From the NCBI GenBank assembly GCA_017624835.1, contig JAGAMG010000052.1, positions 17,580 through 81,579 on the forward strand: DNA of 64,000 bases, given 5' to 3'. The notes beneath the pieces are model-generated. The model was not told where the DNA came from. It saw nothing but the letters and a program-made list of their open reading frames with translations, and did no database searches. The position numbers were made by a program, and so were the translations under genes. This DNA is from Lachnospiraceae bacterium. GTDB taxonomy: Bacteria > Bacillota > Clostridia > Lachnospirales > Lachnospiraceae. Shown here piece by piece: positions 4,324 to 53,061 of this stretch; position 1 is the stretch's first letter, and the number at the start of each line of letters is the position of its first letter.

Positions 4324-4680
4324 ATTATCGCTTTACCGTGATAGAGTATTTGGAATACAAAATTACAGAAAAAAATCAAAATATCAACAGAAGAGAAGTT
4401 GACATAAAATTTACTGTAATATCAGGTATAGGATTCGGGATTATCAGAGTCTATATAGCAATCACTTTTACTACTCTTATTGACCGTTTCACAAGTCTGC
4501 GCTTATTGCACAATTCGGTTATGAAGTAACCAACTTATAAAATTTGAGCTTTTAACTCAATCAATAAGGCAACCTTAAGTTGCCAATCGGCAGTGGACCC
4601 GGCTGTCCGTATGGCCTTAACTCCTATGGAGTGGTCCCAATAATTGCTTGGAAAGACTCCGAAATCAATCCTTCCAAAGT
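4290..4680 (-). ncRNA. Structured leader RNA candidate upstream of speA
   Basis: Transcription from the promoter at 4687-4715 would start near 4680 and run 463 nt before speA. The region holds no plausible gene but many helices, given here as plus-strand coordinates: 4648-4653 with 4672-4677; 4595-4599 with 4633-4637, directly stacked around 4620-4624 with 4628-4632; 4568-4573 with 4579-4584; 4544-4548 with 4556-4560; 4517-4521 with 4527-4531. A second copy of ACTCC (4656-4660) could compete for 4628-4632, a switch-like feature. A terminator-like hairpin ends the block. It could be a riboswitch or attenuator for polyamine synthesis, or an independent small RNA. I could not assign it to a known class. 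Confidence 0.55.
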
Positions 4681-21783: not shown

Positions 21784-21825
21784 TATTGTAATGAAAAAGG
21801 AATCACAAAAGCTGTGGAGGTATCT

Positions 21826-23928
21826 ATGGAGTATAACGAGAAAGCGTTTGCCAAAAGTGCAAATAAAAAGGCAATGGGAATGTGGCTTGTAATGTCCATT
21901 GTGTTATCGGCGGCATATGCCATTGAAATTGTGAAAGGATTGAAAACAGTTCAATATTTTGTAATTATGGAATTAATCTGTTGGATTCCTTTTATATTTG
22001 GATTGATTGTTTTAAAGGTAAAAGGCTGGCATACCAAGCTGTATCAGGATATTGTGGGATTTGGTTATGGTGCTTTTTATCTTTATATAATGATGACTTC
22101 ACCGGGAACCTTGGCATTTACTTACATTTTACCTTTGATGAGTATGCTGATTATTTACAAAAATAAGAATTTTATTTTGCGCTGTGGTGTTGCCAGTGTT
22201 ACTGTTTTGGTTATTACAATTGTGCGAAATTATTTGAAGGGTATGAATACTCCAAATGATATTTCCAATTATGAAATTCAGTTTGGTATTATTCTCTTTT
22301 GTTATATCGGATATATTGTGGCAATTAATCATATGATAAAGTCCGATGGCGCATTGCTGGACTCTGTAAAGGATAATCTGGCTAAGGTGGTTACTACGGT
22401 TGAAAAGGTAAAGGTGGCAAGTAATTCGGTTGTAGATGGTGTAACCGTGGTAAGAGAATTGGCTGAGGAAAATAAAGAAGGTGCTAATATTGTTGTTGGC
22501 AGTATGGATGAATTGGCTGAAAAAAACATGGTATTAAGCCAGAAAATCGATTCTTCCATGGAAATGACGGAGGACATTGACAATCAGGTTGGAAATGTAG
22601 CTGAGTTGGTAGCACATATTGTAGAAATTAGTGAAAAATCAGCTAATCATGCTAATATCAGTGCGAAGGATTTGAAAAATGCGGTGGATGCCACTAATGC
22701 AATGGCAAGATTGTCTTCGGAAGTGGAAGATATTTTAAATGAATTTAAGAATCAGTTTGATAAAGTAAAAAGTGAAACAGGAACCATCGAAAATATTACC
22801 TCCCAGACCAATCTTTTGGCATTAAATGCTTCTATTGAAGCTGCCAGAGCAGGAGAAGCAGGAAAAGGCTTTGCTGTGGTTGCGGATGAAATTAGAAATT
22901 TGAGTATGGGGACTCAGAATTCTTCTAACAGTATTATGGATGCTTTAAAGCTTTTGGAGGAAACCTCAGGTAAAATGACGGAATCCATTACAACCATTCT
23001 GAATCTGATTTCCGAAATCTTAGAAACCATGCAGACTGTCAATGCCAGTGTTGATATGATAGCAAAGGATTCCAAACAGCTTGGTGAGGAAATTCAGGTA
23101 GTGGACTCTGCTATGAATCAGGTGGAATGCTCTAACAAAAACATGGTAGATAATATGAAGCAGGTGCAGGATATTATGGTTACCATGACGCAGAGTGTAT
23201 CTGAATCTGCCACAACCACATCAACCATGCTAAGTAAATATGAGGAGACTGCCCGCAATGTAATTAACATTGAATCTGTTGTTGGTAAATTGGTAGAAGA
23301 ATTAGGTGCCGGCGGATTTATGAGTTTGGAAGATGTTACTGCCGGAATGAAAGTGATTTTGGTTGAGCAGGGCAGTAAGACGGATTATCATACAGAGGTC
23401 GTAGATGTACAAAAAGAAAAGGTAATGATACCTGTTTCAGACGCTTTGGAAAATTATCTGACAGGGAATACGGGCAAGAAGAAATATGAAGTTCGTATTA
23501 TTGTAAATAATACGGTTTATGTTTGGTATGATGTGGAGATTGGCAAGCGAACAAAGAATGCCAATGGACAATATGCTCTTGTACTGGATGACAATCCCAA
23601 GGTGTTAAATCGTAGAAAGCATCCCCGATTGCCGTTGGCAAATTCCTGTGAAATTTTGTTGAAAGCTACAGGAAAAGCTTATTCGGGAAAGGTAGTAAAT
23701 ATCAGTGCCGGTGGTTTTGCTTTTGCCTGTAAAGCACAGGAATTTGCAAGGGTTAATGGAGAGATAGTGGAATTAACCATTCAGGATTTTGAATTATTAA
23801 AAGGAAAGGCGCTTACAGGTATTGTTATTCGTTCCACTGATGATCATGGAACCTATATTGTAGGTTGTAGAATGCCTGAGGATAATGCAGTAATTCAAAA
23901 ATATGTCAATGAAAAAACGATGAAATAA
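21826..23928 (+). CDS. Membrane chemoreceptor with C-terminal PilZ domain
   Basis: 700 residues from the ATG at 21826 (GGAGG upstream); a GTG at 21814 is less likely. The N-terminus has about six membrane helices (20-180) without a large outside domain. A long coiled-coil MCP signalling region follows, with the hairpin tip in [19 protein letters not shown]. The C-terminus has an MVILV-like PilZN barrel followed by PilZ with RRKHPR (596-601) and NISAGG (625-630), both needed for c-di-GMP binding. It should link c-di-GMP to chemotaxis or another CheA output. The conserved motifs suggest it still binds the nucleotide. The 3' side carries the hairpin array. Confidence 0.85.
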
Positions 23929-23959: not shown

Positions 23960-24310
23960 TACAACTGGAATAGAAAAAATTAAGCTAATTGGGGAAAGAG
24001 TATAAAACTATACCAATTGATAATAGGAAAATATAATCTGATTGGGATAAAATTATAACACTATACCAATTAAAATTGAGAAAATATGATTTGATTGGTA
24101 GAAAATTCAAGTGCGTTACCAACTAAAATATGAAATGCATAATTCTGTTGGTGTATAAGTCAGGTGAAATGCCAATTGTGATATGAAATTCTCAATTATG
24201 TTGGTATAGGAAAGGAAGAATATACCAACTAAATCTAAAAGATATATTTTGAGTTGGTATAATGACAAGAAATGCTCCCAATCAAAGTGCGAAAAAACTA
24301 AATAAATTGG
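23960..24310 (+). repeat. Tandem array of 33-nt hairpin units, period exactly 53 nt
   Basis: Six units start with CCAA and end with TTGG, each exactly 33 nt: 24013-24045, 24066-24098, 24119-24151, 24172-24204, 24225-24257, 24278-24310. All linkers are exactly 20 nt. A degenerate seventh unit lies at 23961-23992. The inner sequence varies, but position 5 and its partner change together (T/A, T/A, C/G, T/G, C/G, T/A), which keeps pairing in a plus-strand RNA; on the minus strand the fourth would be an A/C mismatch. No coding frame fits a 53-nt period. It fills most of the 673-bp gap and ends at a terminator, so it is probably a 3' UTR or separate RNA. Binding sites for a DNA protein are the alternative. 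Confidence 0.85.
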
Positions 24311-24333: not shown

Positions 24334-24365
24334 AAAGATATCGGACATGCTTCCGGTATCTTTTT
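24334..24365 (+). terminator. Intrinsic terminator ending the hairpin array
   Basis: A 10-bp stem (24335-24344 with 24353-24362, one G-U pair) with an 8-nt loop and a run of five T. No terminator separates the chemoreceptor-PilZ stop from the array, so the array is likely inside that transcript. Confidence 0.75.
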
Positions 24366-24601: not shown

Positions 24602-25315
24602 ATGGATAACAGTAAATTTCATATTTTAATAGTGGAAGATGATAAGGAAATTCGTGAGGGTGTAGAAATTTATTTGAAAAATCAGGGATATGTGGTTTTT
24701 CAAGCTGCTAATGGACAGGAAGCGCTAAAGATAATCGAGGAACAGGAGATACATTTGGCAATTGTGGATATTATGATGCCGGTTATGGATGGTGTGACCA
24801 TGCTTATGAAACTGCGTATGCTTGAATATGAATTTCCTGTAATTATGCTTTCTGCCAAGTCTGAGGAAGTGGATAAGATTATGGGGTTAAATATGGGGGC
24901 GGACGATTATGTGACAAAGCCCTTTACACCGCTGGAGCTTTTGGCAAGAGTAAATTCTCATTTGAGAAGGTATTCCAAATATTTATCAGCAGTCAATGAA
25001 TACAGCAATAAGGAGCAGATTTATACCATTGGCGGACTGGAGCTGAATGAGGACAGAGTGGAGGTCAGTGTGGATGGAGAACCTGTAAAGCTGACTCCCA
25101 TGGAATTTAAGATAGTACAGCTTCTCATAAAAAATCCCGGAAGGGTTTTTCCGGCGGATGAAATTTACGAGCGTGTTTGGAATGAAAAAGCAGTAAATAC
25201 CGATACCATTATGGTTCATGTAAGAAATATAAGAGAAAAAATTGAAATAGATCCTAAGAATCCCAAGTATTTGAAGGTGGTTTGGGGTGTTGGATACAAG
25301 ATCGATAAGCAGTAG
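24602..25315 (+). CDS. OmpR-family response regulator
   Basis: 237 residues. Receiver domain with acidic pocket E12-D13-D14, phospho-acceptor D56 (IVDIMMP), S84 and K106 (TKPF). A winged-helix DNA-binding domain follows (about 140-235; LTPMEFKIVQLL). It pairs with the histidine kinase 31 bp downstream. Targets are unknown. Confidence 0.92.
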   Translation: MDNSKFHILIVEDDKEIREGVEIYLKNQGYVVFQAANGQEALKIIEEQEIHLAIVDIMMPVMDGVTMLMKLRMLEYEFPVIMLSAKSEEVDKIMGLNMGADDYVTKPFTPLELLARVNSHLRRYSKYLSAVNEYSNKEQIYTIGGLELNEDRVEVSVDGEPVKLTPMEFKIVQLLIKNPGRVFPADEIYERVWNEKAVNTDTIMVHVRNIREKIEIDPKNPKYLKVVWGVGYKIDKQ

Positions 25316-52903: not shown

Positions 52904-52970
52904 CAGTATGATAACCAAAATAAGGGCGAACTAGCCACCGCTTCGGAGCCCGTTTTTGGTTATCATGCTG
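52904..52970. repeat. Long inverted repeat after parC
   Basis: Arms of 17 bp (52904-52920 with 52954-52970, one G-U pair) enclose a GGGC/GCCC helix and a CCG/CGG tip. No T run follows, so it looks more like a REP-like element than a terminator. Confidence 0.75.
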
Positions 52971-53035
52971 ATTCCCGGAACGTTCTGATTCCCGGAACGT
53001 TCTGATTCCCGGAACGTTCTGATTCCCGGAACATT
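52968..53035 (+). repeat. Four tandem copies of a 17-bp repeat
   Basis: Units CTGATTCCCGGAACGTT at 52968-52984, 52985-53001 and 53002-53018 are identical; the fourth (53019-53035) has one change (ACATT). Each contains the dyad GAACGTTC. The array begins inside the arm of the preceding inverted repeat and ends 26 bp before rsmD. Possible variable-number repeat or protein-binding array. Confidence 0.9.
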
Positions 53036-53061
53036 CGAAAAAAAGAAAGGAAGAATTTCAC

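Follow-up and report, generated by a model that had tools for sequence, protein, structure and literature searches.

A stretch of 64,000 nucleotides (nt) from a Lachnospiraceae bacterium (contig JAGAMG010000052.1), referred to here as the window, contains at positions 23960..24310 of its plus strand an array of evenly spaced palindromic units, which raises the question of whether such units act as RNA hairpins or as sites in duplex DNA, and which protein they serve. The reading favored here, to which a probability of about 0.54 is assigned, is that this array and its relatives would be duplex DNA site arrays bound by a nuclease family designated X, in an organization resembling that of REPtrons, which associate TnpAREP/RAYT proteins with repetitive extragenic palindromic (REP) sequences, yet with an unrelated nuclease. 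The window array would be an orphan, set apart from any gene X, and a member of what looks like a new repeat-and-nuclease system.

The window array, of the CCAAC/GTTGG class, has the layout TTGG-N20-CCAA-N25 with a period of 53 nt. TTGG occurs at 23989, 24042, 24095, 24148, 24201, 24254 and 24307, and CCAA at 24013, 24066, 24119, 24172, 24225 and 24278, in both cases spaced by exactly 53 nt, which amounts to six full units preceded by a degenerate one (seven TTGG, six CCAA). The initial annotation of this DNA, which had described six 33-nt CCAA...TTGG units, exact 20-nt linkers and a degenerate unit in front, proved exact to the base. The degenerate unit (TACA...ATTGG, recognized from the sequence) spans 23960..23992; units 1 (24013..24045), 2 (24066..24098) and 6 (24278..24310) carry the inverted half-sites CCAAT/ATTGG, units 3 (24119..24151) and 5 (24225..24257) CCAAC/GTTGG, and unit 4 (24172..24204) CCAAT/GTTGG, all on the plus strand. 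From unit 1 to unit 6, the fifth pair reads T-A, T-A, C-G, T-G, C-G and T-A, confirming that it changes together, as had been claimed, while the sixth pair is Watson-Crick in only one of the six units.

The dispersal of these arrays, their variant cores and the associated nuclease family all go beyond the initial annotation. The window's genome contains the pattern TTGGN20CCAAN25TTGGN20CCAA 33 times, which is far beyond chance, against none for the reversed pattern; the 98 further genomes covered by the search, of which 60 belong to the same genus, have no site. At least nine arrays were recovered in the window's genome with a covariance model, and all nine orphans have CCAAC/GTTGG half-sites and a period of 53. 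Searched against 84,980 species, a longer spacing pattern returned 30 stretches in 10 metagenome-assembled genomes (MAGs), with nine MAGs titled Lachnospiraceae accounting for 29 of the stretches. Viral contigs gave no stretch. Several array-bearing MAGs have titles naming goat, sheep or deer gut. A DNA query with the whole array, run against 61 genomes, hit none but the window's own, because loops and linkers diverge, whereas the spacing pattern succeeded. The consensus of 183 units from 35 arrays is approximately CCAAC-N-AAA-NN-RRRAAAA-N5-AATT-N-GTTGG with a purine-rich linker. Part of the arrays were inspected by eye and mostly open with CCAA and close with TTGG, and the 33-nt unit is therefore taken as the natural one. 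The alignment termed A1 contains no dimers from loci L042, L019 and L002, L042 and L019 having been left out by hand.

Two side observations concern these searches. Some contigs end inside arrays (L019/L035, L040/L042 and contig ends of genome G148), which probably makes counts of arrays in draft genomes too low. At positions 1-300 of L033 (CADBRY010000293.1), a different repeat, TTGGAAGA...CCAAACTTCCAAAC, fits the spacing pattern; it was excluded from unit counts.

The same geometry recurs with other cores. Covariance model R1 matched 11 of 138 genomes of the genus, with the cores CCGAC/GTCGG, CCCCA/TGGGG and CGAAT/ATTCG in units of about 33±1 nt and linkers of about 20±1 nt. The mixed model R2 matched 14 of the 138 and 14 of 397 genomes of the family, the window's genome being included in both counts, and added TACGGAC/GTCCGTA, TACGTACTA/TAGTACGTA, TACCGCC/GGCGGTA and other cores, as well as one array of period 64. 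The covariance-model search of Lachnospiraceae that the initial annotation had proposed thus did find relatives, with the expected geometry but different cores, and departures from the lengths it had expected to be conserved are of two kinds, about ±1 nt or entire helical turns. This geometry and an A-rich center are shared even by arrays that otherwise resemble each other little. Paired, both-sided core changes are far above shuffles; the alternative pairing, of TTGG with the next CCAA, is above shuffles too, but more weakly.

Other elements were considered and set aside. In a clustered regularly interspaced short palindromic repeat (CRISPR) array, identical repeats alternate with unique spacers, while here it is the whole unit that recurs with similar sequence inside an array and changes from one array to the next, in line with the initial annotation, which had excluded CRISPR and could name no known element. 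By eye, some CCAAC units conform to the integron attC core motifs RYYYAAC/GTTRRRY, but the CCGAC, TACGG and ACCGCC classes do not. A conserved GGA, as in CsrA-type loops, is absent from the loops of the 183 CCAAC-class units.

Six of 93 array loci, in six genomes, fall between comEC and a gene X, the array starting from 8 nt inside comEC to 15 nt past its end, and this recurrent comEC-array-gene locus led to family X. Its members have about 270 residues and consist of an N-terminal helix/beta-hairpin/long-helix part and a PD-(D/E)XK-like nuclease domain, whose best structural match, at a middling Z, is I-Bth0305I; judged from fold and homology, X is probably a DNA-cutting protein, and residues E162, D193 and E208 are conserved in it. 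The modeled N-terminus matches coiled-coil, prefoldin and other helical proteins, also at middling Z, and an integrase arm-type fold, a sequence-based guess, was abandoned. Pfam and NCBIfam gave only scattered weak matches (best 9.4e-5, to the viral family Rota_NSP4, in two of 59 members). Among the Pfam matches listed for the 59 members (25 of 44 weak families), there was no HuH/Y1_Tnp domain, TnpAREP elsewhere in the genomes not having been searched for, and no ToxN, AbiQ, CptN or TenpN. Of the 138 genus genomes, 50 contain matches to X, from one to nine per genome with fragments counted. In a phylum sample of 398 genomes, two-domain X was found in five, all Lachnospiraceae, and six more matches covered only or mainly the nuclease domain, as did most of the matching in six plasmid and two phage records; an unannotated 4.2-kb fecal phage record aligns with 87% of X (35% identity).

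Arrays and X genes are linked. A strong tandem array lies upstream of 42 of 66 X genes (one of the 42 being of low complexity) versus 7 of 222 control upstream regions (three of the seven being unmasked arrays of this class; p = 4e-26). The loci examined were 70 of 136 matches, 30 returned as loci and 40 hand-chosen, of which 66 had enough upstream sequence. The repeated stretch ends at a median of 27 nt before the X start codon, and the array is therefore probably in the X leader. Thirteen of the 14 genus genomes with array matches have X, the remaining one being 59% complete (p = 6e-6). R2 matches were present in 7/7 genomes with a comEC-type X and a CCRAC-like X array versus 7/131 others (p = 2e-8), a grouping made after seeing the motifs and in which the match in G111 falls in the array of X itself. 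On the upstream side of X, comEC is found at 11 of the 70 genus loci and at 7 of 21 loci checked outside the genus set. A single X, G000:C13:13304-14104, is present in the window's genome, again in the order comEC-array-X, with CCCGAC sites spaced 75, 74, 75 and 74.

Additional repeats were seen around these loci. At L315 (G011:C15), comEC is followed by a TTGCCT-class array, with no X in the stretch read, then by a short-period repeat, GGTACTGCCACGGGTAGAATGGAACTAG, and transfer RNA-like DNA, and the comEC 3' end seems to be a recurrent site for arrays of different classes. L242 has a second, apparently non-palindromic 42-nt direct repeat between hairpin array and X, some 20-200 nt ahead of X; a 45-nt repeat accompanies the 53-nt repeat of L350; and L251 has, about 600-800 nt before X and in addition to the X array, a repeat of about 100 nt with GGTCACACC and CCTGAGCGAAG.

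The periods of X arrays cluster at whole helical turns. In a first set of 41 arrays, periods were 37 nt (one array), 41-42 (two), 52-54 (21), 62-64 (11), 73-75 (five) and 84 (one); for the 20 arrays of a second set, drawn from other genera, they were 51-54, 62-63, 70, 72-74 and 83. The latter set derives from 34 X loci, 22 of which passed 0.5, with L382 (53) and L390 (41) left out by hand and the 53-nt period used for L350 rather than its 45-nt repeat; L233, of low complexity, was excluded from period counts. With the hairpin-array periods of 62 and 52 substituted by hand for the raw values of L242 (42) and L251 (41), 59 of the 61 pooled periods fall at 51-54, 62-64, 72-75 or 83-84 nt, or about 5-8 turns of B-DNA, and none at 55-61, 65-69 or 76-82. 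Given assignment to the nearest turn, cluster means are 10.4-10.6 base pairs (bp) per turn. The Rayleigh statistic at 10.5 is 0.86 and 0.79, with p = 5.6e-14 for the first set, and the long periods give p = 1.3e-6 and 0.024, values that are overstated because the rows are related by descent. At the orthologous comEC-X locus the period is 52-54, 64 or 74.5 depending on the genome, and L223 has units of 84 and 94 in one locus. A period of whole turns places all sites on one side of the helix, and this clustering is the main reason for preferring duplex DNA sites over RNA. The initial annotation had left three options, a sponge RNA, a protein platform and a one-face DNA operator array, of which the clustering over many arrays favors the last.

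Some orphan arrays match X arrays. In two motif classes, ACCGCC and TTGCCT, most orphans are found in genomes whose X array has the same half-site and period. ACCGCCN22GGCGGT is present in 5 of 12 genomes (13, 36, 7, 11 and 1 sites), and all five have X beside such an array (X being truncated in G105), while the other seven have none. TTGCCTN20AGGCAA has 79 sites in G148, 66 in G011, 14 in G018, 11 in G117 and 10 in G070, with 6, 2, 1, 1 and 1 in five more genomes; X with a TTGCCT array occurs in G011, G018, G117 and G070. The listed orphans keep the period of their class, 53 (54 once) and 52. By eye, orphan and X cores of other genera agree in G965, G963, G244 and G471 and partly in G531, G520 and G410.

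Several observations weigh against the favored reading. Regarding the matching, the X of G148 was not located despite its 79 TTGCCT sites, all 11 listed TTGCCT sites of G117 fall in X's own array, the X array of the window's genome (G000, 84.8% complete) has CCCGAC/GTCGGGC half-sites at 74.5 nt versus CCAAC/GTTGG at 53 in its nine orphans, and in G107 the X array has a period of 64 versus about 53-55 in the orphans. Regarding linkage, 24 of 66 X genes are without a strong upstream array, no X was recovered in 4 of 21 genomes from a sample chosen for bearing arrays (G226 and the genomes of L028, L025 and L046), comEC-X loci L366 and L367 have no array though their genomes have CCAAC orphans, and shared descent among X genes and among arrays makes the tests non-independent. 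The per-turn means presuppose nearest-turn assignment; the Rayleigh curve is broad, with maxima at 10.9 (genus set) and 9.95 (replicate) and not at 10.5, and the helical repeat is therefore not fixed by this statistic alone; and the long periods of the replicate alone reach only 0.024. The sixth pair covaries between arrays (Watson-Crick in 132 of 183 units versus 57.5 expected), which a DNA-binding protein of fixed specificity does not explain, within-array shuffles giving weak support (139 versus 135.2; reached by 136 of 5000). Finally, arrays have a strong orientation that plain double-stranded DNA sites do not require: 37 of 41 arrays have more A-runs on the X-sense strand (two have equal numbers and two have fewer), and orphans point in the same direction as the upstream gene in 61 of 70 cases and as the downstream gene in 54 of 69.

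These orientation data, together with stems preserved through both-sided changes, A-rich loops and the probable leader position of X arrays, are consistent with an RNA element, in which arrays would be transcribed as A-rich-strand hairpins binding X or another protein and acting as an autoregulatory leader, a sponge or an antitoxin-like RNA. Single window units are weak RNA folds (-2.1 to -6.9 kcal/mol, z -0.9 to -3.5), although each of the six folds better than the mean of its own shuffles. Under the premise that in selected RNA stems one-sided changes favor G.U over A.C, the outcome over the pairs is mixed. Pair 5 favors U.G over C.A (46 versus 24, p = 0.012), which counts against DNA sites, as does pair 7, where A.C is rarer than expected (13 versus 27.4) with G.U near expectation (49 versus 57.6). 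By contrast, G.U and A.C are 15 and 11 at the core pair (p = 0.56; 398 units, 76 arrays), and pairs 3, 6 and 8 have no G.U preference (pair 6: G.U 24, 27 expected, A.C 53, 44.8 expected; pair 8: G.U 44, 42.6 expected, A.C 15, 16.6 expected). The earlier proposal that the fifth pair favors a plus-strand RNA is thus not clearly borne out. Furthermore, period steps of about 10.5 nt are without evident reason in RNA; a 150-nt scan with a script that detects the window terminator found nothing terminator-like from array to X in any of 41 loci; array C23, by eye, follows terminator-like and precedes promoter-like sequence; and no Rfam family reached its gathering score over the window array (weak matches only, best E 0.34). 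Altogether, the RNA reading is weakened and considered unlikely, although the strand bias and the between-array covariation of the sixth pair speak for it and for single-stranded DNA hairpins alike.

How the arrays spread is informed by their presence and absence between species. The flanks of the ACCGCC orphan of G011 are contiguous in G117, G018 and G105 (85, 77 and 74% identity), while in G148 an array stands at two contig ends at this site. Flanking genes are mostly unshared between orphan loci of different genomes, L306/L312 being, by eye, an exception, and units are near-copies inside one array but different between arrays. Such near-copies and presence/absence could be produced by spacer minisatellites spreading through slippage, which hairpins favor, or recombination, without a dedicated protein and with palindromes kept by quasipalindrome correction. 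This possibility is improbable, as the same geometry and A-rich center recur in otherwise dissimilar arrays, and as linkage to X, the half-site and period match with orphans and the whole-turn spacing are left unaccounted for. Alternatively, one strand might fold into single-stranded DNA hairpins that are cut during replication and spread by nuclease X, as for REPs; in such bacteria genes mostly run with replication, and orientation with genes, stem covariation and REP-like dispersal with presence/absence all fit. Whole-turn spacing nevertheless points to duplex DNA, and X has a PD-(D/E)XK-like fold with no HuH match among those listed, which makes this route quite unlikely, if somewhat less so than minisatellites.

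The mechanism proposed for duplex DNA sites starts from a unit that consists of an inverted half-site pair (CCAAC ... GTTGG in the window), spans about 33 bp, usually has an A run at its center and recurs at about whole helical turns (five turns, 53 bp, in the window). X, probably dimeric, would bind the inverted half-sites and fill arrays cooperatively, and would regulate its own gene through the upstream array. Orphan arrays would be spread copies of the X site set, as REPs are for TnpAREP, possibly with a role for the nuclease in their spreading and some benefit to the cell. The chances are close to even, and if anything a little below, that these elements form an undescribed repeat-plus-enzyme class in which each X paralogue has its own specificity (half-site and turn number) and a private set of scattered phased arrays, one genome possibly running several orthogonal sets.

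The window array itself sits between the stop codon of a chemoreceptor gene (21814..23928, plus strand; MCPsignal and C-terminal PilZ) and an intrinsic-terminator-like stem-loop running into T directly 3' of the array (24334..24363, plus strand; minimum free energy -14.5 kcal/mol, z -5.08), which was picked up by a custom script and is missing from a separate terminator scan. A response regulator gene (24602..25315, plus strand; Response_reg and Trans_reg_C) follows, and next a HisKA/HATPase_c gene according to domain matches. The neighbors had been named correctly, and a terminator noted, in the initial annotation. This position would suit a local regulator of the adjoining chemoreceptor-PilZ or two-component genes, but arrays of the same class adjoin many different genes in the window's genome, so that the special role formerly suggested for these neighbors is highly improbable. 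Elsewhere in the window, Rfam RF02440 (SpF59 / ldcC RNA, a family described from Streptococcus) matches 4587-4637 on the minus strand (70.6 bits, E 1.1e-10), and a 17-bp direct repeat, CTGATTCCCGGAACGTT, occurs four times at 52968-53036 with 98% match.

In the literature titles and abstract openings searched, none was recognized as describing these arrays or X. Several better-known systems offer points of comparison. In phased operator and iteron arrays, repeated sites lie on one helix face beside the gene of the binding protein; the present arrays differ in having no indicated origin or partition function and in their dispersed orphans. REPs with their HuH enzymes are the best-known dispersed palindromic repeats. 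Among candidate defense proteins in PADLOC, the C-terminal parts of PDC-S68 and PDC-S69 match the X nuclease domain (E to 3.5e-28), although the PDC-S68 models have about 1200 residues versus about 270 in X. A comparison with EDxHD homing endonucleases and Vsr-like nucleases is suggested by I-Bth0305I, which is described as dimerizing on a target of nearly 60 bp (PMC3943268) and is the best match of the X nuclease domain, if only at a middling Z, but X is chromosomal, after comEC in many genomes, and not in an intron. Type III toxin-antitoxin systems such as ToxIN (PMC8860590) likewise have tandem repeats, varying by locus, directly before a nuclease gene, X being a nuclease by fold and homology only; they differ from X loci, which have no terminator-like site between repeats and gene (0/41), no ToxN match among those listed, many orphans far from X and whole-turn spacing.

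The closest parallel is the REPtron, which is described as TnpAREP/RAYT with REPs or the mosaic elements called BIME: short palindromic, mostly intergenic repeats, often tandem, that far outnumber the gene, are said to have co-evolved with TnpAREP and have a cognate DNA-processing gene beside the same repeats (PMC8266576). The present arrays are also dispersed, intergenic, palindromic and often tandem, and a cognate gene lies beside the same repeats for 42 of 66 X genes, the half-site being common with orphans in the ACCGCC and TTGCCT classes and inexact in the window's genome. On the other hand, X is PD-(D/E)XK-like with no HuH Y1 match among those listed, the GTAG tetranucleotide before the palindrome is not conserved in column frequencies of the 183 CCAAC-class units, X-type units are spaced by whole helical turns, and up to nine X matches, fragments included, occur per genome. 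Collectively, the system would work most like a REPtron, yet it lacks two of the features that define REPtrons. If the favored reading is true, the REP-type arrangement would have had another, independent origin, with matching repeat arrays around an unrelated enzyme family. Its numerous naturally occurring pairs of protein and site would help to decipher a code of DNA recognition, and the selfish, structural or regulatory nature of such repeats could be tested cleanly.
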